Assembly: GCF_000524475.1 (NCBI RefSeq)
Contig: NZ_BAVQ01000025.1
Span: 1 to 64,000 of the forward strand
Direction of reading: 5' to 3'
DNA: 64,000 nucleotides
Source of the DNA: Tomitella biformata AHU 1821
Lineage (GTDB): Bacteria; Actinomycetota; Actinomycetes; Mycobacteriales; Mycobacteriaceae
Below, one piece after another: positions 13,637 through 49,128 of this stretch (within the stretch, counting starts at the first letter, position 1; the number at the start of each line of letters is the position of its first letter). The notes under the pieces were generated by a model. That model ran no database searches. It was given only the letters and a program-made list of their open reading frames with translations, and was not told the DNA's origin. Made by a program: the position numbers and the translations under genes.

Positions 13637-13645
13637 TCGGTCAGC

Positions 13646-15387: not shown

Positions 15388-15425
15388 CGCCGAAACTAGC
15401 TCAGGCTAGATCAGCCCAGGCTGAG

Positions 15426-17561: not shown

Positions 17562-17598
17562 GAGCTTTCGAAGCCTTTCTGGAAGAGCCGCTCGGGGG

Positions 17599-23513: not shown

Positions 23514-23746
23514 ACCCGCAAGAGTCTCTGCCCTCCAGGTTGGCGCTCTCATCCTCGAGGGCACGGTCAGCCCCGCCGCGTGGCTCTACGGCGAGACTCA
23601 CTGACCACCCCCAGTCTCACCTAACGGGACACGTCGAGCTGAAAGTATGACGCCGATCACAAACTGTGCCTTGTCCGCGGGTGTCTAGTGATCCCCGCAC
23701 CTGGCGAAGTACCCGTGACTCGACTCGAAAACCTGGAGGAAACTCG

Positions 23747-25360
23747 ATGTCTTTTCCGAGGCAACACCGGCCCGCCGCGATGGCGGTCGCCGCGATGGCC
23801 AGCGTTCTGCTGCTAGCCAGCTGCGGCAGCAGTGGCAGTGGCAACGCTGGCGGAGCAGGCCCTGAAACCGAGGCCGGAGCCGTCGGCATCATCGGCGATC
23901 AACCCGACGGCGGCACTCCCGTCGACGGCGGCACCCTCAGCTTCGCTGGCTACTCTCCCGTCGCCAGCCTGGACCCGACCAAGACCCAGCCCGCCGGCTC
24001 CACCGGCGGCACCGAGATGGCGGCGATCTACGACCTGCTGGTCCGCTACGACGCCGAATCTCAGACCTACGAGCCCCAGCTGGCGAAATCGCTCACCCCG
24101 AACGACGACTACACAACCTGGACCATCACGCTGCGCGACGGCGTCACCTTCAGCGACGGCACCCCGCTCGACGCCGAGGCCGTCGTCGCCAGCACCAACC
24201 GCTTCAACGAGCGTCACGGTGGCAACAGCCAGGCCTTCATGACCGGCGTCAAGTCCGTCGAGGCCACCGACGCATCCACCGTCGTTTACACCATGAACCA
24301 GCCGTGGACCGAGTTCCCGGCCCTGCTGGTCTTCGGTCATGGCATGATCGTCGCCCCCAGCGCGGATCAGCCAGACGGGACGTTCAAGCCAATCGGCGCT
24401 GGCGCGTACACCATGGAGAGTCTGACTCCCGGCGCCGACCTCGTGCTGAAAGCCCGCGAGGACTACTGGAACGGCAAGCCGCACCTAGACACCCTGAAGT
24501 TCGTCACCATCGCGGGCGACCAACCCAAGCTCGACGCCCTCAACACCGGCGACATCCAGATGGCCTTCCTGCTCAATGACGCCGCCATCGACACCGCCAA
24601 GGCCACCCTGCCCGGCTACTACGAGACTGTCAGCCTCGGCAGCTCCGTTGTGCAGATCAACCAGCGGGAGGGCCGCCCCGGAGCCGACCTGCGGATCCGC
24701 AAGGCGATGCAGATGACGGTCGACCCCGAGGTCGTCGATATCCGGTCTAAGGACGGCAAGGGTGCGCCCGGCACCGAGATGTTCCAGTCCTGGTCCAAGT
24801 GGCACAACGACGTCCCGCCTGTGGCGCTCAACACCGACGAGGCGACCAAGCTCGTCAACGAGGCCAAAGCCGACGGATTCGACGGCGACATCACCTACTT
24901 CACAGTGCAGACTCCGTCCTCACAGGCCACGGCCCTGGCCATCCAGGCGATGCTCGCGCCCATCGGCATCAACGTCAACATCGAGTACGCGGCATCGGTC
25001 ACCGACGTCGTCAAGCGCCTATACGTCGACAAGGACTTCGACATCTCCACGGGCTCCTACAGCATCGCCGATCCGGCCCCATTCGCACGCTTGTACAGCG
25101 CCATGAACAGCGAGTCCAGCAATAACATCATCGGCATCAACGACCCGGAGGTGGACCAACTCCTGACGGACATCCAGACCGCGACGGACGACGATGCGAA
25201 GCGCGCGGCGATTGCCAACCTGCAGACCAAGGTCAATGAGCTCGCGCCGTTCTTGCCGCTCGCGGCGGGCGTCACCTTCGTGCCGTGGACCGATAACGTG
25301 CACGGCACGGTCCCGTCCTTGGACGGCATCATGCTGCTCGACCAGGCTTGGATCAAGTAG
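23747..25360 (+). CDS. Peptide/nickel-type ABC transporter substrate-binding lipoprotein (orphan)
   Basis: The 537-residue SBP_bac_5 family protein has a lipoprotein signal peptide ending in LLLASC (Cys26) and the family motif YDLLVRYDAESQTYEPQLAK followed by WTITLRDGVTFSDGTPLD. It should be exported, lipidated and bind an oligopeptide or other solute. No permease or ATPase gene is adjacent. It is clearly paralogous to the protein at 43107-44708; both flank the catabolic gene block. GGAGG precedes the ATG, and a canonical terminator follows. Confidence 0.9.
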   Translation: MSFPRQHRPAAMAVAAMASVLLLASCGSSGSGNAGGAGPETEAGAVGIIGDQPDGGTPVDGGTLSFAGYSPVASLDPTKTQPAGSTGGTEMAAIYDLLVRYDAESQTYEPQLAKSLTPNDDYTTWTITLRDGVTFSDGTPLDAEAVVASTNRFNERHGGNSQAFMTGVKSVEATDASTVVYTMNQPWTEFPALLVFGHGMIVAPSADQPDGTFKPIGAGAYTMESLTPGADLVLKAREDYWNGKPHLDTLKFVTIAGDQPKLDALNTGDIQMAFLLNDAAIDTAKATLPGYYETVSLGSSVVQINQREGRPGADLRIRKAMQMTVDPEVVDIRSKDGKGAPGTEMFQSWSKWHNDVPPVALNTDEATKLVNEAKADGFDGDITYFTVQTPSSQATALAIQAMLAPIGINVNIEYAASVTDVVKRLYVDKDFDISTGSYSIADPAPFARLYSAMNSESSNNIIGINDPEVDQLLTDIQTATDDDAKRAAIANLQTKVNELAPFLPLAAGVTFVPWTDNVHGTVPSLDGIMLLDQAWIK

Positions 25361-25586: not shown

Positions 25587-26777
<1,191 letters not shown>

Positions 26778-26829: not shown

Positions 26830-27420
26830 CTAGACGGTGGGCGACTCGCAGAAACCCCGGAAGAAGAGCACCGTCATCAGCTCGGAGAACTCCTCCAGGG
26901 AGTACTGCTTGCGGTCCGGCCAATGCGTGGTGGACCACAGCGTGTCGCGGACTGTGCGGTAGAAGATCTCCGGGGCGATGTCGCTACGGAAGACCCCGCT
27001 CTCGACGCCCCGCCTGATGGCCGAGAGCCAGTGCTCCCGGATACCGCGGGAAGCGCTGTCAACCGGATCGAGGAGGCCGTGATCGCGCAGGTAGTTGCGG
27101 TCGTTCTGGTAGATCGCCGTGGGATGCGGATGCAGCTCGATCACCGTGAGCGTCTCTCGGATCAGTCCGCGGACGGTCTCGTCCGGGGTAGAGGAGGTCG
27201 CCTCGATCAGGTCGAACCGCGTCTCAATATCTCTCATGAAGACGCCGAGTAGTTCCGCCACGATCGCATTCTTAGACTTGAAATAGTGGTACAGGCTGCC
27301 GGAGAAGACGCCTGCCGCGTCCCCGATCTCCCTGACAGTGGTCACGGAGATGCCCTTCGTGGCGAATAGCTCCGCGGAGCACTCCAGGATTTTCGCCTTG
27401 CGGTCAGGGCTCTGTGTCAC
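26830..27420 (-). CDS. TetR-family regulator, KstR2-like
   Basis: The 196-residue TetR protein has its helix-turn-helix near residues 25-50 (VTTVREIGDAAGVFSGSLYH followed by YFKSKN). This resembles the KstR2 recognition region (GSLYHHFxSK), and the C-terminal ligand domain is of comparable length. KstR2 represses genes for late steroid (HIP) catabolism and binds CoA-thioester effectors. A perfect KstR2-type operator sits upstream of the divergent operon, which makes this the likely local repressor. The start is a GTG at 27420. Confidence 0.85.
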   Translation of the reverse strand: MTQSPDRKAKILECSAELFATKGISVTTVREIGDAAGVFSGSLYHYFKSKNAIVAELLGVFMRDIETRFDLIEATSSTPDETVRGLIRETLTVIELHPHPTAIYQNDRNYLRDHGLLDPVDSASRGIREHWLSAIRRGVESGVFRSDIAPEIFYRTVRDTLWSTTHWPDRKQYSLEEFSELMTVLFFRGFCESPTV

Positions 27421-27736
27421 GGCATCTCTTCTATCTGTAGTCGCGTGTCGGCCATCGTCACCCCAGTATCGCGCGTGCGGATTTCCTGCTACTGGTCGGG
27501 CGTTCCACCCGACGGCGGTAGCCGCCCGAACCGTGCACCGGCAGGAATCGCAAAAGAGCAACGTCCGACGACCGCACATTCCCTCGCAGCGGTTGAAGTT
27601 GCGATCGTAAACCGACGCGGCGTCGGTCCCCGCAGCGCAGTTCCCATCCGCGAGACCACACTTTCCCTTTCCGCAACCTCCTGATAGCTTGAGCTAAATC
27701 AAGCGCTTGCTCAAGAGTTGCGTCACGGAGGCAACA
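27421..27736. other. Divergent intergenic region
   Basis: This 316-nt region separates the TetR gene from the catabolic operon. No credible gene is visible. It holds the KstR2-type palindrome at 27698-27711 and must contain the promoters of both units; I cannot place clear -35/-10 boxes. Confidence 0.7.
27698..27711. promoter_or_regulatory. Putative KstR2-type operator
   Basis: ATCAAGCGCTTGCT matches the published KstR2 consensus AnCAAGnnCTTGnT at all fixed positions. It lies 26 nt upstream of the first operon gene, where a bound repressor would block initiation. The KstR2-like TetR protein encoded divergently is the obvious candidate to bind it. Confidence 0.75.
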
Positions 27737-28291
27737 GTGGAGAAACTAGAGGAACATTTCGCGCATTTCATCGGGGTCGAGGCCGAGCCTCCCCGTGTTG
27801 CGCGCTACGACGTCAATACCGCCATGATCCGGAACTGGGTCGAGGCGCATGACGACCACAACCCGGTCTACATTGACCTGGAGGCCGCCCGCGCCACCGG
27901 CCGCCGGGATGTGATCTGCCCACCCGCGATGATCTCCACCTGGGTTATGTCCGGCTACCGCCGCTACCGCGAAGTCCAGCAACTCCGCGCGGACGGGGTC
28001 ACCGAGGACTTCGCCTACTCGAGACTCCTCGCGATGCTCGACGACGCCGGTTTCACCTCGGTGGTGGCCACCAACGTCGAGCAGGAGTACTTCGCCGAGC
28101 TGTACCCGGGCGACCACGTCACAGCGCACTTCACCGTCGAGTCCATCTCGCCGTTCAAGCAGACCGGCCTCGGCCACGGCTGTTTCATCACGCTCCACAA
28201 GAACTATGCCAACCAGGCGGGCGAGACCCTGGTCGAGGAGCGCTTCCGCATCCTCCGGTTCAACCCCAACAGTCAGGAGACCCCAGCATGA
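27737..28291 (+). CDS. MaoC-like (FAS1-type) dehydratase domain protein, ChsH2 N-terminal equivalent
   Basis: The 184-residue hotdog protein resembles the N-terminal half of M. tuberculosis ChsH2: RNWVEAHDDHNPVYIDLEAA, CPPAMISTWVM, and EYFAELYPGDHVTAHFTVES. The usual hydratase motif NPxH reads NPVY, so the catalytic His is missing. That fits ChsH2, where the active residues come from the partner ChsH1. In mycobacteria ChsH2 is one chain with a DUF35 domain; here DUF35 is a separate gene overlapping by ATGA. The GTG at 27737 has CGGAGG upstream. Likely role: structural partner in a MaoC-type enoyl-CoA hydratase complex. Confidence 0.85.
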   Translation: MEKLEEHFAHFIGVEAEPPRVARYDVNTAMIRNWVEAHDDHNPVYIDLEAARATGRRDVICPPAMISTWVMSGYRRYREVQQLRADGVTEDFAYSRLLAMLDDAGFTSVVATNVEQEYFAELYPGDHVTAHFTVESISPFKQTGLGHGCFITLHKNYANQAGETLVEERFRILRFNPNSQETPA

Positions 28292-28725
28292 GCGAGACAA
28301 CGGAACCGGTCCGGCACACCTCTGTCCCCCGCCTGACGGTCACGCAGGACAACGACTTCTTCTTCAACGCCGCGAAGAAGGGCCGGCTCGAGATCCAGCG
28401 CTGCGCAGACTGCCAGACGCTGCGCCACCCGCCAACCCCATCCTGCCCGTCCTGCCGCTCGTTCGAGTGGGACACGGTGGAGTCGAGCCGCAAGTGCACG
28501 CTGCACAGCTTCACCGTGCTGCACCACCCGAAGGACCCCGCATTCGAGTACCCCCTCGCCGTCGGGCTGGTGGACCTCGAGGAGGGCACCCGCCTGGTTG
28601 CCGACATCGCCGGCATCGACCACGACGACCTGGAGTTCGGCATGGAGCTCGAGGTCGGCTTCTCTGAGCACGCGCACGGCGAGATCCTGCCGCAGCTGCG
28701 CCGCCGCGGGGAGGGCTCGTCATGA
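28288..28725 (+). CDS. DUF35 OB-fold/zinc-ribbon protein, ChsH2 C-terminal equivalent
   Basis: The 145-residue protein has an N-terminal rubredoxin-like zinc ribbon (CADCQ and CPSC, residues of about 38-56) and an OB fold (SFTVLHHPKDPAFEYPLAVG, LVADIAGID). DUF35 proteins pair with thiolase-like lipid-transfer proteins; in the cholesterol pathway the DUF35 part of ChsH2 holds Ltp2. Its ATG overlaps the stop of the MaoC gene and its stop overlaps the next start, so the three chains are probably made stoichiometrically. Confidence 0.88.
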   Translation: MSETTEPVRHTSVPRLTVTQDNDFFFNAAKKGRLEIQRCADCQTLRHPPTPSCPSCRSFEWDTVESSRKCTLHSFTVLHHPKDPAFEYPLAVGLVDLEEGTRLVADIAGIDHDDLEFGMELEVGFSEHAHGEILPQLRRRGEGSS

Positions 28726-29132
28726 GCCTTCCGCAGTGCGAGGTCGGCTACACCCTCCCCAGTCTCGACCTGCCCCTGGACCGGACGCTGATCGTCGCCG
28801 CCGCGATGGCCTCGCAGGACTACGAGGATGTGCACCACGATCCCGCCAAGGCCCAAGATCGCGGCACCCCGGACATCTTCATGAGCATCAACTCCACCAA
28901 CGGGTTCATCGACCGCTATGTGACCGACTGGTCCGGGCCGGCGTCGCGGATCCGGAAGATCTCGCTGCGCCTCGGCGTCCCCAACTTCCCCGGGGACACC
29001 ATGACCTTCACCGGTGAGATCACCGCCGTCGACGGCGCCGCCGTCACCATCAAGGTCGTCGGCCGCAACCAGCGCGGCGCCCACGTCACCGCCGACGTCA
29101 CCGTCGAGCCCACCCAAGGAGCGAGCACATGA
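28722..29132 (+). CDS. MaoC-like enoyl-CoA hydratase, ChsH1-like
   Basis: The 136-residue hotdog protein carries Asp33 and His38 in the motif QDYEDVHHDP. The spacing is the same as the catalytic Asp29/His34 of ChsH1. It should supply the active site for hydration of an enoyl-CoA with the ChsH2-like chain. FMSINSTNGFIDRYVTDW matches the family core. It is coupled to both neighbours through ATGA overlaps. Confidence 0.87.
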   Translation: MSLPQCEVGYTLPSLDLPLDRTLIVAAAMASQDYEDVHHDPAKAQDRGTPDIFMSINSTNGFIDRYVTDWSGPASRIRKISLRLGVPNFPGDTMTFTGEITAVDGAAVTIKVVGRNQRGAHVTADVTVEPTQGAST

Positions 29133-30310
29133 CCCGCGGATTCTCTGGCGCCGCCGCAATCGCCGGCATCGGCGCAACCGAGTTCTCCAAGAATTCCGGA
29201 CGCAGCGAGTGGCAGCTGGCCTGCGAGTCCGTCCTTGCCGCCCTCGACGACGCGCAGATCGGCGTCGAGGAGGTCGACGGCTTCTCGTTGTTCACCATGG
29301 AGAACAACCCGGAGATCGCCGTCGCCCGCGCGCTCGGCATCCCGGAGCTCAAGTTCTTCAGCCGCATCCCGCACGGCGGCGGCGGCGCGTGCGCGCCCGT
29401 CCAGCAGGCCGCGCTCGCGGTCGCGACCGGTGTCGCCGAAGTCGTCGTCGTCTACCGCGCGATGAATGAGCGTTCCGGCCACCGCTTCGGCCAGGGCCCG
29501 CCCGCCTTCGCATACAACCAGAACACCGACCAGGAGTACCGCAACTGGATCAACCCGTACGGGTTGCTCACCCCGGCCCAGCAGGAAGCCTTCCTGGCCA
29601 AGAAGTACATGCACAAGTACGGGGCCACCAGCGCGGACTTCGGAGCGATCTCGGTGCTCTCGCGCAAGCACGCGGCTAACAATCCAAAGGCCTGGTTCCA
29701 CGAGCGCCCCATCACCATCGAGGACCACCAGAACTCGCGGATGATCGCCGACCCGATCCGGCTGCTGGACTGCTGCCAGGAGTCCGACGGCGGCGTCGCG
29801 CTGGTCATCGTCAGCGCCGAGCGCGCACGCGACCTGCCGCACAAGCCCGCCATTATCACTGGCGCGGCGCAGGGCGTGGGCCCGCAGCAGATCTCCATGA
29901 GCAGCTACTACCGCGACGACATCGACTCCATGCCGGAGGTCGACCTCGTCGCCCGGCAGCTGTGGAGCCAGTCCGGGCTCAGCCCCGCCGAGATAGACGC
30001 CGCGATCCTCTACGACGCCTTCACCCCGATGGTGCTGCTTCAGCTCGAGGAGTACGGCTTCTGCGGCAAGGGCGAGGCGAAGGACTTCATCGCCGACGGC
30101 AACCTCGAGGTGGGTGGCCGCCTGCCCATCAACACCAACGGCGGCCAACTCGGCGAGGGCTACATCCACGGCGTCAACGGCATCGCCGAGGGCGTGCGGC
30201 TCATCCGCGGCACCTCCGTGAACCAGCCCGCGAAGACGCTGGACAACGTCCTCGTCACCGGCGGCTCCCCCGTGCCGCACAGCGCGCTCGTGCTCTCCGC
30301 CGACCGCTAG
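29129..30310 (+). CDS. Thiolase-like lipid-transfer protein (Ltp2-like aldol lyase)
   Basis: The 393-residue protein of the SCP-x thiolase family has AAIAGIGATEFSKNSGRSEW at the N-terminus, PHGGGGACAPVQQAALAVA around Cys88 and a C-terminal PINTNGGQLGEGYIHGVNG. It follows MaoC and DUF35 genes exactly as ltp2 follows chsH1/chsH2 in the igr operon. Ltp2 there performs retro-aldol removal of propionyl-CoA from the steroid. The same carbon-carbon cleavage on a 3-hydroxyacyl-CoA is the best guess. Thiolysis cannot be excluded. Confidence 0.85.
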   Translation: MTRGFSGAAAIAGIGATEFSKNSGRSEWQLACESVLAALDDAQIGVEEVDGFSLFTMENNPEIAVARALGIPELKFFSRIPHGGGGACAPVQQAALAVATGVAEVVVVYRAMNERSGHRFGQGPPAFAYNQNTDQEYRNWINPYGLLTPAQQEAFLAKKYMHKYGATSADFGAISVLSRKHAANNPKAWFHERPITIEDHQNSRMIADPIRLLDCCQESDGGVALVIVSAERARDLPHKPAIITGAAQGVGPQQISMSSYYRDDIDSMPEVDLVARQLWSQSGLSPAEIDAAILYDAFTPMVLLQLEEYGFCGKGEAKDFIADGNLEVGGRLPINTNGGQLGEGYIHGVNGIAEGVRLIRGTSVNQPAKTLDNVLVTGGSPVPHSALVLSADR

Positions 30311-30356: not shown

Positions 30357-31571
30357 ATGACCGACCGCATCACCTATGCCCGCGCGACCCACGGCGAGGA
30401 AGAGATCCAGGCCGTCGTCGACGTGCTTCGCAGCGGCCACCAGGGCCTGCGCATCGGCAAGAACGTCGCCGAGATGGAGCGCCGCATCGCGGACCTCAGC
30501 GGCAAGAAGTTCGGCGTGATGGTGAACTCCGGCTCCTCGGGCCTGTACATTGCCGTCGAGCTGCTGAACCTGCCCAAGGGCAGCGAGGTCATCACCTCGC
30601 CACTGACATTCTCCACCGACATCGCACCCATCGTGCGCGCCGGCCTCGTGCCGGTGTTCGTTGACGTCGAACCCAACACGGTCAACATCGACGTCAGCAA
30701 GATCGAGGCGATGATCAGCGAGAAGACCGGCGCGATCCTGCTGCCGAACCTCGCCGGCAACTGCCCCGACTGGGATGCCATCCGCGAGATCGCCGACCGC
30801 CACGGCCTCAAGATCATCGAGGACTGCTGCGACGCGATCGGCCCCACCCTGCACGGCACGCCCACCGGCGCCCGCGCCGACATCAGCGTCACCAGTTTCT
30901 CGATGGCCCACATCATCACCTGCGCCGGCACCGGCGGCATGGTGTTGGTCGACGACCAGGCGAGCCGCGACAAGGCGCTGCTGCTGCGCCGCTGGGGCCG
31001 CCGCAGCGAGCCGAACCTGTTCGGCAGTACCAAGGATGTCGGCCGGGTATTCCGCGAGCAGCTCGACGGCGTCGACTACGACAACGACTTCATCTTCGAC
31101 GACGTCATGCCCTGGAACTTCGAGCCCTCCGAGCTGGGCGCCGCCTACGGCGTCGTGCAGCTGGACAAGCTCGCGGACAACTACAAGACGCGCAAGGCGA
31201 CCTGGGCCGCCTACACCGCGGCCTATGGCGAGTTCCCCGAGTTCTTCACCACGCCCGTCGAGCTCCCGGGCCTGGACACCGCGTGGCTGTGCTACCCGGT
31301 GATGATCAACGCCGACGCCCCCTTCACCCGCAGCCAGCTGCAGGAGGCCATCGAGGGCGATGGCATCGACACCCGCACCGTCTGGAGCGGCAACATCACC
31401 CGGCACCCGATGATGAACAACATCGAGTTCCGCCAGCCCGCCGACGGCCTGCCGGTGGCCGACGAGGTCTTCGCCCGCGGCATGACCCTGGGCATGAGCC
31501 ACGGGCTCACCGACGAGGAGGTCGCCCGCATCGGCGCGAGCATCCACCGCTTCGCCTCGAAGTTCAAGTAG
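30357..31571 (+). CDS. PLP-dependent RfbH/ColD-like sugar 3-dehydrase homologue with His in place of the Schiff-base Lys
   Basis: The 404-residue protein has the DegT/DnrJ/EryC1 fold. The residue that would be the PLP lysine is His185 (TSFSMAHIIT), as in the dehydrases RfbH/E1 and ColD. The core EDCCDAIG...TGARADIS also follows RfbH. However, the four cysteines that bind [2Fe-2S] in E1 are absent, because that segment reads RRWGRRSEPNLFGSTKDVGR. So it should bind PMP and dehydrate rather than transaminate, perhaps ColD-like. No sugar-nucleotide genes accompany it: it sits 46 nt after the Ltp2-like gene and 2 nt before an SDR in a CoA operon. Substrate unknown. Confidence 0.85.
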   Translation: MTDRITYARATHGEEEIQAVVDVLRSGHQGLRIGKNVAEMERRIADLSGKKFGVMVNSGSSGLYIAVELLNLPKGSEVITSPLTFSTDIAPIVRAGLVPVFVDVEPNTVNIDVSKIEAMISEKTGAILLPNLAGNCPDWDAIREIADRHGLKIIEDCCDAIGPTLHGTPTGARADISVTSFSMAHIITCAGTGGMVLVDDQASRDKALLLRRWGRRSEPNLFGSTKDVGRVFREQLDGVDYDNDFIFDDVMPWNFEPSELGAAYGVVQLDKLADNYKTRKATWAAYTAAYGEFPEFFTTPVELPGLDTAWLCYPVMINADAPFTRSQLQEAIEGDGIDTRTVWSGNITRHPMMNNIEFRQPADGLPVADEVFARGMTLGMSHGLTDEEVARIGASIHRFASKFK

Positions 31572-31573: not shown

Positions 31574-32413
31574 ATGGGCAAGCGATTCGAGGGACGGCGC
31601 GCCGTCGTCACCGGCTCTAGCCGGGGCATCGGCGCGGCCGTCGCGGAGCGGCTTGCCGCTGAGGGCGCCGACGTGGTCATCACCGCGCGCACCCTCGGCC
31701 CCGGCGGGCGCCTGCCCGGCAGCCTGGAGGAGACTGCCGAGCGGCTGCGCGGTTACGGCGGGAAGGTCGAGATGGTCGTCGCCGACCTGACCGACCCAGA
31801 GAGCCGCTCCCCGGTGGTGCTGAAGGCGGCCGAGCTGCTCGGCGGGCCGATCGACATCCTGGTCAACAACGCGGCCGCGGCGATCTACCAGCCGCTGGCG
31901 GACTACCCGCTGCGACGTCGGCAGCTCACGTTCGAGGCCAACGTGCACGCCCCGCTGGACCTGATGCAGGCCGCCATCCCCCCGATGGTCGAGGCCGGCG
32001 CGGGCTGGATCGTCAACGTCTCCAGCGCGACCGCCCGGCACCACGCGGGTCCGCCGTTCGATCTGGTGCCCCCCGGCACGTCAATGGCGGTCTACGGCGC
32101 GTCCAAGGCCGCGCTGAACCGCATCACGCACGGCATGGGTGCGGAGCTCTACGGCACGGGCGTGCGGGTCAACACCGTTCAGCCGCGCGCCGCGGTGCTC
32201 ACCGAGGGTGCCAAGTCCCTGGTCGGCGCCACCGTCCGTCCGGACCAGATCGAAGCACTCGAGGAGATGGTCGAGGGCGTGCTCGCGCTCTGCGACTGCC
32301 CCGCCGACGTGACGGGCCAGGTGTGCGTGAGCCTGGACCTGATCGACAAGTGGAACCTGACCACCCGGGGCCTGGACGGCCAGGCCTGGACCAAGACTGA
32401 GGAGATGTCATGA
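31574..32413 (+). CDS. Short-chain dehydrogenase/reductase
   Basis: The 279-residue SDR has the cofactor motif TGSSRGIG at 13-20, VNNAA, the catalytic Ser region IVNVSSAT and YGASK. A long C-terminal tail (WNLTTRGLDGQAWTKTEEMS) is shared in style with the SDR at 38294-39223. It likely oxidises a 3-hydroxyacyl-CoA or a related alcohol. It starts 2 nt after the PLP-enzyme gene and overlaps the next thiolase by ATGA, tying the PLP enzyme to the beta-oxidation genes. Confidence 0.88.
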   Translation: MGKRFEGRRAVVTGSSRGIGAAVAERLAAEGADVVITARTLGPGGRLPGSLEETAERLRGYGGKVEMVVADLTDPESRSPVVLKAAELLGGPIDILVNNAAAAIYQPLADYPLRRRQLTFEANVHAPLDLMQAAIPPMVEAGAGWIVNVSSATARHHAGPPFDLVPPGTSMAVYGASKAALNRITHGMGAELYGTGVRVNTVQPRAAVLTEGAKSLVGATVRPDQIEALEEMVEGVLALCDCPADVTGQVCVSLDLIDKWNLTTRGLDGQAWTKTEEMS

Positions 32414-33555
32414 CACCGGTCATCGTCGACCTGGCCCGGACCCCGTTCGGCAGGCGCAACGGCTGGCTGTCCACGATCCACTCTGCCGAGCTGCTGGGCC
32501 TGGCCCAGCGCGGTGTGCTCGAGCGCAACGGGATCGACCCGCAGCTCGTCGAGGAGGTCATCGGCGGCTGCGTCACGCCGCTGGGCGAGCAGTACGGCCA
32601 CATCGTCCGCACCGCATGGCTGCATGCCGGCCTGCCCCCACACACCGGCGCGACCACCATCGACGCCCAGTGCAGCACCGCGCAGCGGTCCGTGCAGCTG
32701 CTGGCCGGGCAGATCGCGGCCGGTGCGACGGATGTGGGCGTCGCCTGCGGCGTCGAGCTGATGACCCGCGCCCCGCTGACCGCCAAGGTCGGCAAGGGCC
32801 TGGGCACCCCACGGCCCGAGTCCTGGTCGGTCGAGTACCCCGACCAGTACACCGGCGCAGACCGCATCGCCCGCAACCGCGGCTTCGCCCGCGCGGACCT
32901 CGACACGTTCGGCCTGCGCTCGCAGCAGCTGGCGAAGGCGGCATGGGACGAGGGCCGGTTCGACTCGCAGATCATCCCCGTCACCGCGCCATCGACCGAG
33001 CCCGGCGGCGAGCCGGTCCTGGTCACCCGTGACCAGGGCTTGCGCGACTCCACCCTGGAGGGCCTCGCCCGCCTCAAGCCCGTCCTCGAGGGCGGACTGC
33101 ACACCGCCGGCACCTCCTCGCAGATCTCCGACGGGGCCAGCGCCGCGGTGCTGATGTCCGAGGAGCGCGCGCGCGAGCTGGGCGTGTGTCCGCGGGCGCG
33201 GATCTTGGCGCAGTGCATCATCGGTGGCGACCTGGAATACCTGCTGGACGGCCCGATCGACGCCGGCCGCAAGGTGCTCGGGCGCACCGGCATGAGCGCG
33301 GCGGATATCGACCTGTTCGAGATCAACGAGGCCTTCGCGTCGGTCCCGATGTCCTTCGCCAAGGTCCACGGCGTGGCCGAGGACCGCCTGAACGTCAACG
33401 GCGGCGCGATCGCCGTGGGCCACCCGGCGGGCGCGACCGGCATCCGACTGCTCGCGACGGCACTCGACGAGCTCGAGCGCCGCGACGCGTCCACCGCGCT
33501 AGTGGCCATCTGCGCCTCCGCGTCGACCACCGCGCTCATCCTCGAGCGGATCTAA
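32410..33555 (+). CDS. Thiolase with altered C-terminal cysteine motif
   Basis: The 381-residue thiolase has the nucleophilic Cys in TIDAQCSTAQRSVQLLAGQI and the histidine motif [18 protein letters not shown]. The second, proton-relay cysteine is retained in AICASASTTALI, but the usual glycines of CxGxG are replaced. It is paralogous to the thiolase at 25587-26729. Expected role: thiolysis of the ketoacyl-CoA formed by the adjacent SDR. It overlaps the SDR gene and is followed after 10 nt by the fused acyl-CoA dehydrogenase. Confidence 0.88.
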   Translation: MTPVIVDLARTPFGRRNGWLSTIHSAELLGLAQRGVLERNGIDPQLVEEVIGGCVTPLGEQYGHIVRTAWLHAGLPPHTGATTIDAQCSTAQRSVQLLAGQIAAGATDVGVACGVELMTRAPLTAKVGKGLGTPRPESWSVEYPDQYTGADRIARNRGFARADLDTFGLRSQQLAKAAWDEGRFDSQIIPVTAPSTEPGGEPVLVTRDQGLRDSTLEGLARLKPVLEGGLHTAGTSSQISDGASAAVLMSEERARELGVCPRARILAQCIIGGDLEYLLDGPIDAGRKVLGRTGMSAADIDLFEINEAFASVPMSFAKVHGVAEDRLNVNGGAIAVGHPAGATGIRLLATALDELERRDASTALVAICASASTTALILERI

Positions 33556-33565: not shown

Positions 33566-35779
33566 GTGGCGTTAGCACTCGAAGAAGAACACCGGCACCT
33601 CGCCGAATCGGTCGAGTCGTTCGGCGCGCGCGCCGACGGCATCGCGCACGGCCGGGCGCACTCCGCCCGGCTGGCGGCCGGCGAGCTGCCGGACACCTGG
33701 GATCAGCTGGTGCAGCAGCGCCTGCACGCGATCCACCTGCCCGAGCAGCACGGCGGCGACGGGGCCGGCATCGCCGAGCTCGCGGTCGTCGTCGAGCAAC
33801 TGGGCAAGGCCCTGTACCCGGGTCCGTTCCTGCCGACCGTCATCGCCAGCGCGATCCTCGCGCGGGCGGGGGCCTCGGCCGTCGCGGCCGGGCTGCTCGC
33901 CGAGTTCGCGGGCGGCGCGACCGGTGCCGCCAGCTTCCGCTCCGGCCTGACCGCCGAGCGCACGGCCACCGGCTGGCGCGTCGACGGCGTCTCCGAGCCA
34001 GTGCTGGGACTGCCCGGCGCGGACATCGTGCTGGCGCGCGCGCTCGACGGCGCGGGCTCGCCAGTGTGGTTCCGCCTCGCCGGTGGCGCGAGCGCCACGA
34101 TCACCGCCCAGGACGGCGTCGACCTGACCCGCTCTATTGGCGTGCTGGAGCTGCGCGGGCACGAGGTCCCCGAGGCCGACGTGCTCGCCGGCGTGACCGA
34201 TGCCGACGCCGAGTGGCTGCGCAACACCCTCTTCGCCGCCGAGGCCACCGGCATCGCGGCCTGGACGCTCTCGACGGCCGTCGAGTACATCAAGACGCGC
34301 GAGCAGTTCGGCCGGGCGGTCGGCAGCTTCCAGGCCGTGCAGCACAAGGCCGCGATGATGCTGGTGCGCGCGGAGATCGGGTGCGCCGCGGCCTGGGACG
34401 CCGCCCGCGCGCAGGAGCACGACGCGGACCAGCGCGCGCTCGTCACCGCGCAGGCGGCGGTCGCGGCGTTATCCGCGGGCGTCGACAACTCCCTCGAGTG
34501 CGTGACACTGCTCGGCGGGGTCGGATTCACCTGGGAGCACGACGTGCACCTGTACTGGCGCCGGGCGATCAGCCTGGCGGCGCTCGCCGGGTCCGAGGAG
34601 CTGTGGGCACAACGCCTCGGCGAACTCGCGATTACCACGACGCGGGACTTCTCCTTCGTCGCGGATGACACGCTGCCCGCGCTGCGGGCCGAGGTCGCCG
34701 CGGTGCTCGAGCAGCTCGAGGCCCTGCCCGACGACGCCGTGCGCAGCGAGGGCTGGGCCCCGGAGCGGGGCGGCAGCCGACGCGCTCTGCTCGCCGGCGC
34801 GGGCCTGGTCGCCCCGCACTACCCGAAGCCCTATGGCCTCGGCGCGGGCCCGGAGCAGCAGGCCGTCATCGCGCAGGAGTTCGCGGCGCGCGGGCTCACG
34901 CAGCCGACCACCGTGATCGGCGAGTGGGTGCTGCCCACGATCCTCGAGCACGGCAGCCCGCAGCAGCAGGGGCGGTTCATCGACCCAACCCTGCGCGGGG
35001 AGATCGTCTGGTGCCAGCTGTTCTCCGAACCCGGCGCGGGCTCGGACCTGGCGGGGCTTTCGACTGCGGCCCGCAAGGTCGACGGCGGGTGGCTCCTCTC
35101 CGGCCAGAAGGTGTGGAACTCGATGGCCCACGAGGCCGACTGGGGCGTGTGCCTGGCGCGCACGGACCCGGACGCGCCCAAGCACAAGGGCATCTCGTAC
35201 TTCCTCGTGGACATGAAGACCCCCGGGGTGGACGTGCGCCCGCTGCGGCAGGCCACCGGCTTCTCCGAGTTCAACGAGGTCTTCCTCGACGAGGTCTTCG
35301 TGCCCGACGAGTGCCTGGTCTCCGAGCCCAACCAGGGCTGGCGCCTCGCCGTCACGACGCTCTCCAACGAGCGCCTGAGCATGGGCGGGGCCCTGGGCCA
35401 CGGCTCGAGCGACCGCTACCGCGACGTCCTCGCGCAGGGCGCGCACAGCTGCTCACGCGCGGACGCGGTGCGCGCGCTCGGCCACAGCACCAGCCGCGAG
35501 TTTGCGCTGTCCGCGCTCAACCTGCGCGGCGTCCTGGCCCGGCTCGCGAGCGTGGAGCCGGGCGCGGAGATCAGTGTCGCGAAGGTCTACAACGCGCTCG
35601 CCCAGCGCGAGGGCTCGCGGGACCTGCTGCGCCTGCTCGGCCCGCAGGCCGCGGTCCTGCACCCGGAGGCCGACCACGTGATCGACCACATCGGCCTGCC
35701 CGCCATCCTCTTCGGCGGCGGCACCGTGGAGATCCAGCTCAACGTGATCTCCCGACGCGTCCTGGGGCTGCCCCGCTGA
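33566..35779 (+). CDS. Two-domain (tandem) acyl-CoA dehydrogenase, FadE34-like
   Basis: The 737-residue chain contains two acyl-CoA dehydrogenase modules. Module 1 (to about 355) has EQFGRAVGSFQAVQHKAAMM and LLGGVGFTWEHDVHLYWRRA. Module 2 (from about 380) has QLFSEPGAGSDLAGLSTAAR, SGQKVWNSMAHEADWG and a C-terminal ILFGGGTVEIQLNVISRRVL. M. tuberculosis FadE34 (ChsE3) has the same architecture and acts on steroid side-chain CoA esters. One module probably binds FAD and catalyses while the other is structural. The GTG start at 33566 is 10 nt after the thiolase stop. Confidence 0.9.
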   Translation: MALALEEEHRHLAESVESFGARADGIAHGRAHSARLAAGELPDTWDQLVQQRLHAIHLPEQHGGDGAGIAELAVVVEQLGKALYPGPFLPTVIASAILARAGASAVAAGLLAEFAGGATGAASFRSGLTAERTATGWRVDGVSEPVLGLPGADIVLARALDGAGSPVWFRLAGGASATITAQDGVDLTRSIGVLELRGHEVPEADVLAGVTDADAEWLRNTLFAAEATGIAAWTLSTAVEYIKTREQFGRAVGSFQAVQHKAAMMLVRAEIGCAAAWDAARAQEHDADQRALVTAQAAVAALSAGVDNSLECVTLLGGVGFTWEHDVHLYWRRAISLAALAGSEELWAQRLGELAITTTRDFSFVADDTLPALRAEVAAVLEQLEALPDDAVRSEGWAPERGGSRRALLAGAGLVAPHYPKPYGLGAGPEQQAVIAQEFAARGLTQPTTVIGEWVLPTILEHGSPQQQGRFIDPTLRGEIVWCQLFSEPGAGSDLAGLSTAARKVDGGWLLSGQKVWNSMAHEADWGVCLARTDPDAPKHKGISYFLVDMKTPGVDVRPLRQATGFSEFNEVFLDEVFVPDECLVSEPNQGWRLAVTTLSNERLSMGGALGHGSSDRYRDVLAQGAHSCSRADAVRALGHSTSREFALSALNLRGVLARLASVEPGAEISVAKVYNALAQREGSRDLLRLLGPQAAVLHPEADHVIDHIGLPAILFGGGTVEIQLNVISRRVLGLPR

Positions 35780-35843: not shown

Positions 35844-37061
35844 ATGTACCTAGACCTGTCCGACAACTCGAAGGCGCTGCGCGCAGAGCTGCGCGCGTAC
35901 TTCGCCGACATCATCAACGACCAAGACCGCGCGGACCTGGTCGACCAGACCGAGGGCGGCCCCACCTTCGACCGCATTCTGCGCAAGATGGGCGCCGACG
36001 GCTGGCTCGGCCTGGGCTGGCCGGAGGAGTTCGGCGGCCGCGGCGAGGACCCCGAGGCTCTCTACGTCTTCTACGACGAGGTCATCCGCGCGAATGCCCC
36101 GCTCTCGCTGGTCACGCTCAACACCGTCGGCCCGGCGCTGATCAAGCACGGCACCCAGGCGCAGAAGGACTACTTCCTGCGCCCGATCCTCGCGGGCGAG
36201 CTGATCTTCGCGATCGGCTACACCGAACCGAACGCGGGCACCGACCTCGCCGCGCTGGAGACCCGCGCCCGGGTCGAGGGCGACGAGCTGGTCATCAACG
36301 GCAACAAGATCTTCACCAGCGCCGGCGTCTTCGCCGACTGGGTCTGGCTGGCCGTGCGCACCGACCCGGACGCGCCCCGCCACCAGGGCATCTCCGTGGT
36401 GCTCGTGCCCACCAACTCCCCCGGCTTCTCGGTCACCGAGATCCACACCGTCGGCGGCATCAGCACCTCCGCCACCTACTACGAGGACGTGCGGGTCCCG
36501 CTGTCCAACGTCGTCGGCGAGCTCAACCAGGGCTGGAAGCTGATCACCGACCAACTCAACCACGAGCGCGTCGCCCTGGCCGCGCGCGGCGGCATCGCCA
36601 ACGAGCTCTTCACCGAGGTCCTGGCCTGGGCCAAGGCCGAGCCCTGCGACGACGACAGCAACGTCTACGACGTGCCGTGGGTCCGCGAGAAGATGGCGGA
36701 GATCTACGCGCTGCTCAGCGCCGCCGACCTGATGAACCTGCGTCTGGTCGCCGACGTAGCGGCCAACACCCTCGGCGGCGGCGACTCCGCGGCCGCCAAG
36801 ATCTTCGGCACCGAGGCCGTCGTCAGCGCCTACGGGATGCTGCAGGAGGTGCTCGGAGCCAAGGGGCTGCTGCGCCCCGGCACCCCCGGCGCGGCTATCG
36901 AGGGCCGCGTGGAGGCCCTGGGGCGCCGCGCGCAGAACAACACCTTTGGCGGCGGCACCAACGAGGTCATGCGCGAGATCGTCGCGGGCAAGACCCTCGG
37001 CATGACCATGTCCGCGCGTCGCCGCACCGATGCGCCCAAGACCACAGCTGGAGGGAAGTAA
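35844..37061 (+). CDS. Acyl-CoA dehydrogenase, FadE26/FadE28-like subunit
   Basis: The 405-residue protein has YTEPNAGTDLAALETRAR, NGNKIFTSAG and the C-terminal NNTFGGGTNEVMREIVAGKT typical of the large partner of heteromeric steroid acyl-CoA dehydrogenases. The smaller partner follows 2 nt downstream, the arrangement known for ChsE1-ChsE2 and ChsE4-ChsE5 alpha2beta2 enzymes. A 64-nt gap precedes it, with an AGGAG ribosome site. It likely introduces the alpha-beta double bond hydrated by the MaoC pair. Confidence 0.9.
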   Translation: MYLDLSDNSKALRAELRAYFADIINDQDRADLVDQTEGGPTFDRILRKMGADGWLGLGWPEEFGGRGEDPEALYVFYDEVIRANAPLSLVTLNTVGPALIKHGTQAQKDYFLRPILAGELIFAIGYTEPNAGTDLAALETRARVEGDELVINGNKIFTSAGVFADWVWLAVRTDPDAPRHQGISVVLVPTNSPGFSVTEIHTVGGISTSATYYEDVRVPLSNVVGELNQGWKLITDQLNHERVALAARGGIANELFTEVLAWAKAEPCDDDSNVYDVPWVREKMAEIYALLSAADLMNLRLVADVAANTLGGGDSAAAKIFGTEAVVSAYGMLQEVLGAKGLLRPGTPGAAIEGRVEALGRRAQNNTFGGGTNEVMREIVAGKTLGMTMSARRRTDAPKTTAGGK

Positions 37062-38191: not shown

Positions 38192-38293
38192 CCGAAGCTG
38201 AGAGCCGCGGCGAGCCCCCCGACGCGCTGCGCCCGCGACACAGCTTCTAGAGATATCGGTTCGCCAACCCCCAAAGCGATAGGTGTGCAGATC

Positions 38294-39223
38294 GTGACAA
38301 CTCAGGAACACAAGCCCGGCCTCGCGCTGGTCAGCGGTGCCAGCCGCGGGATCGGCCGGGCCATCGCGCGGCGCTTCGCGGCCGAGGGCATCGCCGTGGC
38401 CGCCGTCTCCCGCACCATGCGGGCGGGCGACGGCGCGCTGCAGGGCTCCCTCGAGGAGACAGTCGAGCTGATCACCGCCGACGGCGGCGGCAACGCCGAG
38501 GCCTTCGCCGTCGACCTGGGCAGCCCCGACCTGGACCGCGCCGCCCTGATCGCGGAGATCGAGGAGAAGTTCGGCCGCCGGGTGGACGCCCTGGTCAACA
38601 ACGTCGCCGCGGCCCGCCGCTACGACACGCTGTTCGCCGACATGCCCCGCGAGTGGTTCCAGGACTCCGTCGAGACCAACCTGTGGAACACCTGGGACCT
38701 GATGAAGGCCGTCATCCCCGGCATGCGCAAGAGCGGCGCCGGCTGGATCGTCAACATCTCCTCGCGCCAGGCCGGCCCCCGCGTCGGGCCGCCGTTCGCC
38801 TTCCACCCGCTGGCCGGCTCCGTGCTCTACGGCGGTACCAAGGCCATGCTGGACCGCATCAGCACCGGCTCTGCCATGGAGCTCTACGAGGACAACATCG
38901 CGGTGAGCTCGCTCGCCCCCAACCGCGGCGTCGCCACCGAGCACGCGGCCGGCGCGGTGCCCGGCTGGCCGTCGGAGCCCGAGGACACGATGGCCGAGGC
39001 CGCGCTGCTGCTCGCCAGCTCCAAGCTGGACGCGGTCACCGGCCGCGTCGCCTACAGCCTCCCGCTGCTCAAGGAGTTCAACCGTCCGGTCCGGGCGCTC
39101 GACGGCTCCGGCCTGCTCGCGGGCTGGCAGCCGGCGGACCTCGACGACGAATCCTTCCTGCTGCCCTACCTGAACTTCAACCCCCCGGGCGCGGTCCCGG
39201 AAGGCCTGCTGAAGAAGGCCTAG
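38294..39223 (+). CDS. Short-chain dehydrogenase/reductase
   Basis: The 309-residue SDR has SGASRGIG at 14-21 (Ser for the usual Thr), VNNVA, IVNISSRQ and the catalytic YGGTK. The tail (LDGSGLLAGWQPADLDDESF) is long, like that of the SDR at 31574-32413, to which it is related. The GTG at 38294 is preceded by AGGTG; another GTG three codons earlier is possible. A 102-nt gap separates it from the dehydrogenase pair, so a secondary promoter is possible. Confidence 0.85.
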   Translation: MTTQEHKPGLALVSGASRGIGRAIARRFAAEGIAVAAVSRTMRAGDGALQGSLEETVELITADGGGNAEAFAVDLGSPDLDRAALIAEIEEKFGRRVDALVNNVAAARRYDTLFADMPREWFQDSVETNLWNTWDLMKAVIPGMRKSGAGWIVNISSRQAGPRVGPPFAFHPLAGSVLYGGTKAMLDRISTGSAMELYEDNIAVSSLAPNRGVATEHAAGAVPGWPSEPEDTMAEAALLLASSKLDAVTGRVAYSLPLLKEFNRPVRALDGSGLLAGWQPADLDDESFLLPYLNFNPPGAVPEGLLKKA

Positions 39224-39306
39224 TCGGCGAGAACCTGTCCTATCCCGGCGCCCGCCCCGGCCTTGGTGGCCGCGGCGGGCGCCACAACTATCGTGGAGAG
39301 TGCAAG

Positions 39307-40986
39307 TTGGAAACATTCACCGAGATCGTCCGGCTGCGGGCCGAGGACGACAAGGTCGGGCTCCGGTTCGAGGACCAGTCCTGGACATGGCGCGAGGTCG
39401 TCCAGGAGGGCGCCGACCGCGCCTCGCTGCTGGCCGCGTTGGTGGACCCGGCCCCCGCAGACCGCCAAGTGCACATCGGCGTGCTGCTCGAGAACGTGCC
39501 GGACTTCGTGTTCTGGCTGGCGGCCGGGCCCCTCGCAGGCGCCGTCGTCGTCGGCATCAACGCCAGCCGCAGCGGCCCCGAGCTGGCGCGGGACATCGCG
39601 CACGCCGACGTGGACGTGATCATCACCGAGGACAAGCTGGCGCACCTGGTCACGGGCACCGGGCACAGCATCCCCGACGAGCGCATCCTGAACGTGGACC
39701 AGCCGTCCTACCTCGCCGCGCTCGCGCCCCACCGCGGTGCCGCGTTGCCGGATGTCACCCCCACCGCGGACCAACTGGCGCTGCTGTTGTTCAGCTCCGG
39801 CTCGACGGGCGCGCCCAAGGCCGTCATCGTCGGCCAAGGCCGCCTGGGCCGGCTCGTGGAAGCCCTCGTGGACCGCGTCTCGATGCGCCGCGACTCCGTG
39901 ACGTATCTGTGCATGCCGCTCTTCCACGGCAACGCAGTGATGATGAACCTCGCAGTCGCCATGCGCACGGGCGCGACGGTCGGTATGACCCGCAAGTTCT
40001 CCGCCAGCGGCTTCGCGAAGGACGTTCACCGCTTCGGCGCGACCTACGTCAACTACGTAGGCCGCGCCTTGTCCTACGTGCTCAGCCAGCCGGAGGACCC
40101 GCGCGATGGCACCAGCACGCTGGAGCTGGCGTTCGGCACCGAGGCCTCCGAGGCGGATGTGCAGCGCTTCACCGAGCGCTTCGGCTGCGAGGTCATGGAG
40201 GGCTACGGCCTCAGCGAGGGAGTCTTCCGCCTCGGACGCACCGCCGACACCCCGAAGTACTCGCTCGGCCTGCCGCAGAACGGCCTGGACATCCGGGTCT
40301 ACGACGAAGCCACCGGCGCGGAGTGCCCCCGCGCGGAGTTCGACGAGAGCGGCCGGCTCAAGGACATCGCGGCAGTCGGCCAGATGGTGGCCGTCGGCCT
40401 GGCCCGCGCCTTCGAGGGCTACTACAAGAACCCCGAGGCGATGGCCGACCGGATCCGCGGCGCGGACTTCTGGTCCGGCGACCTCGGCTACCGCGACGCG
40501 ACGGGCTACTTCTACTTCGCCGGCCGGTCCTCGGACTGGCTGCGGGTAGACAGCGAGAACTTCTCCGCGGCCCCCGTCGAGCGGGTGCTCGCGCGCGTGC
40601 CCGGCGTCGCCTCGGCGCCGGTCTTCGCCGTCCCGGATCCCCGGACCGGCGACCAGGTGATGACCACTCTCGAGATGTCGGACGGCGCCGACTTCGACGT
40701 CGATGCCTTCGGCCCCTTCATCGAGGGCCAGTCCGAGATGGGCGCCAAGTGGTGGCCCACCTACCTCCGCGTGACCGACCGCATTCCGCTGACCGGCAGT
40801 GGAAAGATCAACAAGGCGCCGCTGCGCGAGGCAGCTTGGAACACCACCGACCCCGTCTACATCCGAGTGGGCAAGACCAGCGCCTACGTCCCGATCGACG
40901 ACGCCCAGCGCGCGGCGATCGAGGCGGAATTCCGCAGCCACGGCCGGGCGGCGCTGCTGCCCCCGCCGGTAGCCGCGACTGTCTAG
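39307..40986 (+). CDS. Acyl-CoA ligase/AMP-dependent synthetase (FadD type)
   Basis: The 559-residue ANL-family enzyme has the phosphate loop LLFSSGSTGAPKAVIV, the YGLSEGVFRLGR adenine motif, the SGDLGYRDATGYFYFAGR hinge region and the C-terminal catalytic Lys in LTGSGKINKAPLR. It would activate the free acid entering this pathway by adenylation and CoA transfer. The best start is a TTG at 39307 with GGAGAG 7 nt upstream; no ATG or GTG lies suitably in frame. It is the last intact gene of the operon. Confidence 0.88.
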   Translation: METFTEIVRLRAEDDKVGLRFEDQSWTWREVVQEGADRASLLAALVDPAPADRQVHIGVLLENVPDFVFWLAAGPLAGAVVVGINASRSGPELARDIAHADVDVIITEDKLAHLVTGTGHSIPDERILNVDQPSYLAALAPHRGAALPDVTPTADQLALLLFSSGSTGAPKAVIVGQGRLGRLVEALVDRVSMRRDSVTYLCMPLFHGNAVMMNLAVAMRTGATVGMTRKFSASGFAKDVHRFGATYVNYVGRALSYVLSQPEDPRDGTSTLELAFGTEASEADVQRFTERFGCEVMEGYGLSEGVFRLGRTADTPKYSLGLPQNGLDIRVYDEATGAECPRAEFDESGRLKDIAAVGQMVAVGLARAFEGYYKNPEAMADRIRGADFWSGDLGYRDATGYFYFAGRSSDWLRVDSENFSAAPVERVLARVPGVASAPVFAVPDPRTGDQVMTTLEMSDGADFDVDAFGPFIEGQSEMGAKWWPTYLRVTDRIPLTGSGKINKAPLREAAWNTTDPVYIRVGKTSAYVPIDDAQRAAIEAEFRSHGRAALLPPPVAATV

Positions 40987-43106: not shown

Positions 43107-44708
43107 CTAGTTCGTCTTCCACGCCTGGCCGAAGAGCACCAGGGAGTTCGAGGACCCCAGGATGCCGTGCATGTTCGCGTTCCAGATGATGAAGTCGGAG
43201 AAGTCCCCGTACACCAGGTACGGCGCGTCCTTGTTCACCTGCTGCTGGATCTTGTCGAGGATCTGCAGCTTCGCGTCCGCGTCCGGCTCCGTCTGCACCT
43301 GCTCGATCAGCGCGTCCATCTCGGGGCTGGTGTACATGCCGTACACCTGCTTGCCTGCGCTGTGCATCGTCGCGAACATCTTGGGGTACGGGTCCGCCTC
43401 GCGGAAGCTCAGCCCCCAGGCGGCGATGTCGTAGTCCCGCTCCGCCGCGATGGTGCGGATCTGGTCGCCGATCGTCGGCAGGTTGTTGACCTGCACGTCG
43501 AAGCCCACAGCCTCGAGTTGCGCCTCCACCGCAAGGGACGTCTGCAGAGACGCGGGGTCCGACGCGTCGATGACCTCGAGCTGGCCGTCGTATCCGTCCG
43601 CCTTCGCGGCGTCGACCAGTCGCGTGGCCTCCTCGACGTCCACCTGCGGGCCGGGGGTCTCGGTGTGCCAGCGCGAGCCCTCCGAGAAGATCATGTTGGT
43701 GCTCTTGTTCGTGTTGCCGAAGGCCCGCTCGTTGATGATGTCCGTATCGATGGCCAACTGCATCGCCTTGCGCAGGCGCGGATCGGCGCCCGGCCGGCCC
43801 TCAGCTGCGTTGATGACCGCCGCGTTGGCGGCAGCCGTCAGGTTCATGTACCCGCTCACGCCGCGGTCCAGCGCCTGCTGGATCTCATTCGGCTCACGGA
43901 CGAACGTGGCGTCGATGCCGCCGTTGAAGAAGGTCTCCTGCCCCACCGTGGTGCTGGGCAGGTACACGAAGGTCAGCGTGTCCAGGTTCGGCTCGCCGGC
44001 CCAGTAGCTCGGATTGGCGTTGAGCAGCATGGACTCGGCCTGCGACCACTTGTCCAGGGTAAAGGGCCCGGCGCCGATCGGGGTGAACTTGCCGTCGGCC
44101 CCGTCCGAGTCGGTGGACACGATCATGCCGGGCCCGGTGGTGAGCAGCCCGGGGAACTCGGCCCAGGTCTTGTTCAGCTCGTAGACCACGGTCTTGTCGT
44201 CGGGCGTGGTGATGCCGACGACGCTGTCCTTCCACAGCGCGGCCTCGGGTGCCGGCTTGGCGGCGTAGCGCTCCTGGCTGGCCTTGACGGCCGCCGCGTC
44301 GACGGGCTTGCCATTGGAGAAGGCCACCCCGTCCCGGAGGGTCAGCGTCCAAGTCCGAAAGTCCGCGTCGTGCTCGAGGCCCGCCGCCATCTGGGGGACA
44401 AACTCCTGGGCGTCGCTGTCGAGCCGCATGAGGGAGTCGTAGATGTTGACCATCTCCGCGCCGCCGGTGGTGACCGAGGTGATGGTGACCGCGGGGTCGA
44501 GGGATGCAGGCTCCGAGTACGAGCCGAAGGAGGCGCCACCGCCCCGGACGGGCTCGCCGCCATCGACCACGTTCACCATGCCGTCGCTGAGCACTGCGGA
44601 CGCTTCTGCGCCTCCCGACTCCCCAGCGCTGGCGCAGCCGGTCACGAACAACGCGACTGCGGCCGGCACGGCCGCCATCCGCCACATACTTAATCTTCCT
44701 CGAACCAC
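43107..44708 (-). CDS. Peptide-type ABC transporter substrate-binding lipoprotein (orphan)
   Basis: The 533-residue SBP_bac_5 protein has a lipoprotein signal ending ALFVTGC (Cys25), IYDSLMRLDSDAQEFVPQMA and WTLTLRDGVAFSNGKPVD. It is paralogous to the lipoprotein at 23747-25360. No permease or ATPase gene adjoins it. The GTG at 44708 has AAGGAG 6 nt upstream; an ATG seven codons later is an alternative that keeps the signal peptide. It lies downstream of eutC on the same strand with a 135-nt gap, so it may be expressed with ethanolamine genes, but a peptide-like or CoA-pathway-derived ligand is equally possible. Confidence 0.88.
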   Translation of the reverse strand: MVRGRLSMWRMAAVPAAVALFVTGCASAGESGGAEASAVLSDGMVNVVDGGEPVRGGGASFGSYSEPASLDPAVTITSVTTGGAEMVNIYDSLMRLDSDAQEFVPQMAAGLEHDADFRTWTLTLRDGVAFSNGKPVDAAAVKASQERYAAKPAPEAALWKDSVVGITTPDDKTVVYELNKTWAEFPGLLTTGPGMIVSTDSDGADGKFTPIGAGPFTLDKWSQAESMLLNANPSYWAGEPNLDTLTFVYLPSTTVGQETFFNGGIDATFVREPNEIQQALDRGVSGYMNLTAAANAAVINAAEGRPGADPRLRKAMQLAIDTDIINERAFGNTNKSTNMIFSEGSRWHTETPGPQVDVEEATRLVDAAKADGYDGQLEVIDASDPASLQTSLAVEAQLEAVGFDVQVNNLPTIGDQIRTIAAERDYDIAAWGLSFREADPYPKMFATMHSAGKQVYGMYTSPEMDALIEQVQTEPDADAKLQILDKIQQQVNKDAPYLVYGDFSDFIIWNANMHGILGSSNSLVLFGQAWKTN

Positions 44709-49114: not shown

Positions 49115-49128
49115 ACCGAGTTTGGGGG

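Follow-up and report, generated by a model that had tools for sequence, protein, structure and literature searches.

Why should a protein whose nearest solved relative is a dehydrase of nucleotide-sugar metabolism be encoded among genes of a steroid-like β-oxidation pathway? The question is raised by positions 30357-31571 of the window, as we call the whole stretch of 64,000 nucleotides from Tomitella biformata AHU 1821 analysed here. A first-pass annotation had suggested that a PMP-dependent dehydrase-type step was moved at this locus from sugar metabolism to steroid-like catabolism, and the grouping of the homologues into a clade and the context of their genes, as set out below, argue for such a move.

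The DegT-fold gene and its operon

The gene is an exact open reading frame on the forward strand, running from an ATG at 30357 to a TAG ending at 31571 and encoding 404 amino acids. It starts 46 nt after the end (30310) of a gene for an Ltp2-type aldolase and stops 2 nt before the ATG (31574) of a gene for a short-chain dehydrogenase/reductase (SDR), in exact agreement with the spacing given in the first-pass annotation. Comparison with close orthologues indicates purifying selection (dN/dS 0.07-0.11); scans for promoters and terminators gave no signal above chance. The product matches the Pfam family DegT_DnrJ_EryC1 with an E value of 8.7e-82, and its top NCBIfam model is RfbH (NF011936), to which it scores 256 bits, below the cut-off of 423; other, distant members of its clade also stay below this cut-off (268-284 bits). 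The top match in the PDB is E1 (3bcx), spanning residues 13-393, and sequence, profile and fold all point to RfbH/E1 as the closest solved relative. Many aminotransferases align best with the N-terminal half only, and ColD aligns over the full length in a profile search. Two stretches of the predicted structural model of the protein, residues 184-191 and 217-252, are weak.

Upstream of the DegT gene and on the same strand lie genes for a FAS1-like dehydratase or MaoC-type protein (27707-28291, start uncertain; PF13452), a DUF35/ChsH2 protein with a zinc ribbon and an OB fold (28288-28725; PF01796, PF12172), a MaoC/ChsH1-like hydratase subunit (28722-29132; recognised by eye, with no Pfam match at 1e-6) and the Ltp2-type aldolase itself (29129-30310; 658 bits to the lipid-transfer protein model PRK07855, cut-off 469). 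Downstream follow the conserved partner SDR (31574-32413), a FadA5-type thiolase (32410-33555; 585 bits to the steroid 3-ketoacyl-CoA thiolase model, cut-off 515), a fused two-domain acyl-CoA dehydrogenase (33566-35779), which also occurs near DegT in Prescottella, a Nocardia MAG and three further loci (L103, L104, L111), another acyl-CoA dehydrogenase (35844-37061), a second SDR (38285-39223; at related loci it shares about 40% identity with the first) and an AMP-binding CoA ligase (approximately 39220-40986, in the frame of the open reading frame 38653-40986). On the reverse strand, a TetR-type regulator conserved in related loci is divergent from the operon (26830-27579), and a second FadA5-type thiolase is encoded at 25587-26729 (600 bits, cut-off 515). 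The gene caller, based on codon-position GC, is crude and may miss genes, and some neighbours consequently start too early in these coordinates. The window thus holds gene types of sterol side-chain degradation, with FadA5-type thiolases and Ltp2 scoring above the curated NCBIfam cut-offs and with ChsH2 domains and MaoC-type genes beside them; a second Ltp2 (64% identity) is encoded on another contig of the same genome.

Further out, family-5 solute-binding proteins are encoded on each side of the operon (23666-25360 and 43107-44708), no ABC permease being recognised beside either; solute-binding proteins and/or oligopeptide-type ABC transporter genes are also found at the Nocardia DegT loci L026-L029 and L039. 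Ethanolamine ammonia-lyase-like genes (EutB/EutC type), an amino-acid permease and an aldehyde dehydrogenase stand in a row at 44844-50652, and mycofactocin-biosynthesis-like genes (MftF-like glycosyltransferase, MftD, the radical SAM protein MftC, MftB and a TetR regulator) at 52100-63285, both identified by eye. At several loci of Nocardia and Saccharopolyspora, DegT has a mycofactocin-coupled SDR as its neighbour.

Active-site residues and phylogenetic position

The window protein is a DegT-fold, RfbH/E1-like protein with a histidine, His185, at the catalytic position and without the Fe-S site. His185 aligns with His220 of E1 and occupies the position of the lysine in GDP-perosamine synthase; it is conserved without exception in 26/26 homologues and throughout a larger alignment of 113 sequences. 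The [2Fe-2S] loop of E1, DCYCAPGCDNTC, is represented in the window protein by RRSEPNLFGSTKD, which has none of the four cysteines. Throughout the actinobacterial clade (n=83) the histidine is present and loop cysteines are absent; the catalytic lysine with which DegT aminotransferases form the internal aldimine was found in 0/83 members, His occupying its place. All E1 sequences of a comparison set (n=21) have the histidine and three to four cysteines in the stretch matching the loop, and the ColD-like sequences compared (n=6) have the histidine and at most one cysteine. The alignments thus bear out the first-pass description of a protein with His185 at the PLP-lysine site, the RfbH core motifs and no E1 cysteines, and no close relative among the aligned sequences has regained the lysine or the cysteine set. 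The core motifs themselves (EDCCDAIG, ADIS, AHIIT and GGMV) are all present, but EDCCDAIG- and GGMV-like motifs are general in E1/DegT proteins, and it is the histidine combined with the missing cysteine loop that discriminates.

Residues that E1 shares with ColD-like proteins are retained (S58-G59-S60, D156, D159 or Glu, S180, R211, W213, N254, R340 and G345-N346), and the cofactor positions are invariant across the clade. Compared with E1, the clade has Ala or Ser182 at Tyr217, mostly Ile186 at His221, mostly Leu, His or Met311 at Phe345, and Trp343 at Phe377, and an RRWGRRSE block takes the place of the Fe-S loop. We take D194, Y217 and F345 of E1 to be positions with active-site roles. Replacement of the tyrosine near the catalytic histidine by Ala or Ser would suit a bulkier substrate, and as neither Tyr217 nor Phe345 is kept, the reaction could have shifted together with the substrate.

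In a tree of 95 proteins, with ColD-like sequences included and authentic ColD left out, the 69 Actinomycetota sequences form one group (support 100/99), from which both the E1s and the ColD-like proteins stand apart; the window protein and the ColD-like sequences accordingly belong to separate clades of this tree. One sequence (L036) has a long branch and is of unsure placement. The sister of the actinobacterial clade, with support of 100/100, is a gammaproteobacterial protein (L035), which likewise has the histidine and no loop cysteine. Its gene lies directly 3' of rfbF- and rfbG-like genes (named by eye) and is followed by other sugar-type genes. The products of rfbF and rfbG carry out CDP-glucose synthesis and 4,6-dehydration. 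The presence of the Fe-S-free L035 protein at the site expected for a CDP-4-keto-sugar 3-dehydrase supports 3-dehydrase chemistry in the ancestor. The L035 cluster (7966-17746 of that locus, from a MAG), comprising rfbF, rfbG, the Fe-S-less RfbH-like gene, an epimerase, a TPP enzyme and a dehydroquinate-synthase-like gene, is an unusual dideoxysugar cluster in its own right, its 3-dehydrase having no Fe-S site.

The distribution of the gene is patchy: it occurs in 21/151 genomes of the family, 6/396 of the phylum and 36/248 of one distant order. Six Acidimicrobiia-type genomes (G942, G1150, G1029, G1092, G1055 and G427) carry two or three copies each, often drawn from separate subclades, with identities to the window protein of about 57% and about 50%; at locus L122 two copies are separated by about 1.2 kb.

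Gene neighbourhoods of the homologues

The context of the gene was surveyed at 70 actinobacterial loci of 4-21 kb, with counts made by tblastn and hence independent of the gene caller. With rfbF, rfbG and the epimerase of L035 as the only sugar-gene queries, 0/70 loci gave a match at the thresholds used; rfbF and rfbG were present at L035 and at the E1 loci with flanks (L134, L160, L162 and L163). Many of the 70 loci contain Ltp2/DUF35/FadA5-like genes, KstD/KshA/HsaD-like genes or two genes of the family PF04909, and their neighbourhoods fall into four types. Type A, in Nakamurella and in Rhodococcus, has DUF35/Ltp2, joined in Rhodococcus, as in the window, by SDR, thiolase and acyl-CoA dehydrogenase genes. 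Type B (Prescottella and the Nocardia MAG) has the order DegT, PF04909, SDR, PF04909, fused acyl-CoA dehydrogenase, with Ltp2 near in L018. Type C (Nocardia, Saccharopolyspora) has KstD (1032 bits, cut-off 793), KshA and HsaD-like genes, together with a KstD-like/HsaB-like fusion, a mycofactocin-coupled SDR, an IclR regulator and an MHS transporter. Type D, of Acidimicrobiia-type genomes, has the matching SDR and/or two PF04909 proteins, some loci adding P450, luciferase-like, KstD-like or EthD-like genes; many have no recognised steroid gene, and the substrate class may therefore be wider than steroids. Loci with no CoA enzymes beside DegT also exist. The fusion noted for type C, a KstD-like FAD domain and an HsaB-like flavin reductase domain in a single protein, is encoded at 11362-13452 of L029 and 11366-13489 of L028.

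The His/no-Cys clade thus unites homologues beside MaoC/DUF35/Ltp2, KstD/KshA or SDR and PF04909 genes rather than sugar-nucleotide genes, and the sugar clusters that would have spoken against the first-pass annotation were seen at none of the 70 loci. A narrower idea, that DegT is tied only to side-chain β-oxidation, was dropped once ring-degradation contexts without Ltp2, and PF04909 contexts, had been found.

The SDR at 31574 has an orthologue near DegT at 30/70 loci, spread over nine separate lineages; it is invariably encoded on the strand of DegT and is mostly adjacent to it. Fourteen distant genomes bearing DegT each encode just one to four SDRs at such similarity among some 70-160 candidates, and in 12 of the 14 the orthologue lies within 600 bp of DegT. 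Twelve control genomes of the same order but without DegT gave no such SDR in nine cases and a distant one (≤43%) in the other three.

As for the PF04909 neighbours, the solved structures nearest to one of them, AmdA, are PtmU3 and DitZ, which belong to diterpenoid pathways. The family includes dinuclear monooxygenases such as PtmU3, and a reading of these neighbours as hydrolases was dropped in view of the proximity of AmdA to that enzyme (PMC10811679). At loci L105 and L116, AmdB lies upstream and AmdA downstream of DegT, each within about 30 nt. These two PF04909 proteins differ from one another; as a pair they recall the two-subunit arrangement of AibH1H2, and they may hydroxylate the substrate of DegT.

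Proposed reaction, alternatives and known systems

Since the branch sits among genes for the breakdown of steroid-like rings, it probably dehydroxylates a ring ketone. From the conserved residues and the gene context we infer, with slightly more confidence than doubt, that the window protein is a PMP-dependent, Fe-S-free, ColD-like α-hydroxyketone deoxygenase in the catabolism of steroid-like polycyclic isoprenoids. The broader proposition, that the whole actinobacterial branch of the E1/ColD enzymes has left nucleotide sugars and dehydroxylates beside ketones on steroid- or diterpenoid-like rings, without an Fe-S centre and with a dedicated SDR, stands in our view at about an even chance.

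E1 and SpnQ require an Fe-S centre and a reductase. With the histidine in place, the Fe-S loop gone and the shared core intact, the best model for the window protein is a ColD-like cycle. In ColD and the Campylobacter jejuni C3-dehydratases, PLP and glutamate give PMP, a ketimine is formed, the hydroxyl is lost and hydrolysis yields the deoxy-ketone, the base being a histidine (PMC8987622, PMC10440746). By this model, glutamate would convert the bound PLP to PMP, which would form a ketimine with the ring ketone; His185 would take the C4' proton of PMP as the hydroxyl of the neighbouring carbon departs; and PLP and an enamine would be released, the latter hydrolysing to the deoxygenated ketone and ammonia, with no Fe-S centre or reductase required. 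The partner SDR may either make the ketone before the DegT step or reduce it afterwards, and in the type C context the mycofactocin-coupled SDR could supply it. In clusters free of nucleotide sugars, the natural counterpart substrate would be an α-hydroxyketone on a polycyclic isoprenoid. The Ltp2 retro-aldol reaction of cholesterol catabolism leaves a 17-ketone. Because the window gene follows Ltp2, our first guess, a doubtful one, is a 16-hydroxy-17-ketosteroid left by this reaction on C16-oxygenated sterols, followed, again with low confidence, by a 2-hydroxy-3-ketosteroid.

The place of the window gene among CoA-thioester enzymes would also agree with a catabolic role in which another PMP/PLP reaction, an elimination or C-C cleavage, acts on a CoA ester or a ring-opened intermediate, as would the replacements at E1 Tyr217, His221 and Phe345; we nevertheless find this rather unlikely, for the shared dehydrase core is intact, the L035 sister is placed where a 3-dehydrase is expected, and some loci have no CoA enzymes next to DegT. 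Transamination of a ring ketone, or deamination of an aminosteroid, within steroid-like catabolism would be in keeping with the DegT fold and with the ability of SpnQ, also of the His type, to transaminate without its reductase when given PLP and glutamate. However, E1 and ColD fail to do so under the conditions used for SpnQ (PMC8987622), and with the catalytic lysine missing from all 83 clade members this reading seems unlikely.

The protein might still be a nucleotide-sugar 3-dehydrase, or act on the sugar of a steroid glycoside, and owe its place in the operon to that activity or to chance. The characterised relatives all use nucleotide sugars (PMC8987622) and L035 lies inside a CDP-sugar cluster, but the count of 0/70 for rfbF, rfbG and the related epimerase and the linkage to SDR and PF04909 genes, conserved across lineages, make this quite improbable. 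Least of all do we expect a non-catalytic, regulatory or structural PLP-fold protein: the lysine essential in aminotransferases is indeed lost, yet the residue in its place is exactly the histidine of active dehydrases, as invariant as the cofactor positions, and the dN/dS values are low (0.07-0.11).

The PMP-dependent deoxygenases characterised so far act on nucleotide-activated sugars (PMC8987622). Should the favoured deoxygenase reading be true, the window protein would be, as far as we could find, the first acting on any other substrate, and a branch dedicated to ring catabolism would broaden the range of reactions catalysed by the DegT fold. It could explain how soil bacteria remove hydroxyl groups from polyhydroxylated steroids or terpenoids ahead of the usual degradation of rings and side chain, and might provide a biocatalyst for selective α-ketol deoxygenation. 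A further suggestion is that genes of the branch in Rhodococcus, Nocardia and Acidimicrobiia-type genomes are misnamed where they are called sugar aminotransferases or RfbH. In the literature, subscription journals being mostly uncovered, we found no report connecting DegT with steroid or cholesterol catabolism, Ltp2 or terpenoid catabolism in Acidimicrobiia, and work on the degradation of ecdysteroids and diosgenin offered no lead at the level of genes; the branch appears to be a new one of a known enzyme kind, in a new biological role.

With sterol side-chain operons of the chsH1-chsH2-ltp2 and fadA5 type the window operon has its gene types in common, DegT being the addition; to our knowledge, none of the cholesterol or cholate clusters described so far includes a DegT gene. 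The sugar aminotransferases GDP-perosamine synthase, ArnB and PseC share the fold and the framework of the PLP site, with a lysine where the clade has histidine. The L035 protein is 48% identical to that of the window and, like it, has the histidine and no loop cysteine, but it differs in its CDP-sugar context, in keeping Tyr where the clade has Ala or Ser, and in having no RRWGRRSE block. RfbH/E1 (CDP-6-deoxy-L-threo-D-glycero-4-hexulose-3-dehydrase; PDB 3bcx, 3bb8; NF011936) is alike in fold over the full length (VIA Z 47.5, 363 residues), in the position of the catalytic histidine, in cofactor-site residues and in the C-terminal GN...R-P motif; the window protein departs from it in lacking the four [2Fe-2S] cysteines, in the RRWGRRSE block, in the Ala/Ser at Tyr217, in an identity of 27-30% with a score below the family cut-off, and in having no rfbF or rfbG nearby. 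ColD/C3-dehydratase (GDP-4-keto-6-deoxymannose 3-dehydratase; PDB 2gms, 3b8x) is less similar than E1, its relatives form a separate clade, and its HH pair and the aromatic residue preceding that pair are absent from the actinobacterial clade. Both proteins, however, have His for Lys and no Fe-S site, and they match over the full length in the profile comparison (212 bits); ColD is the most likely mechanistic model for the window protein (PMC8987622, PMC10440746).
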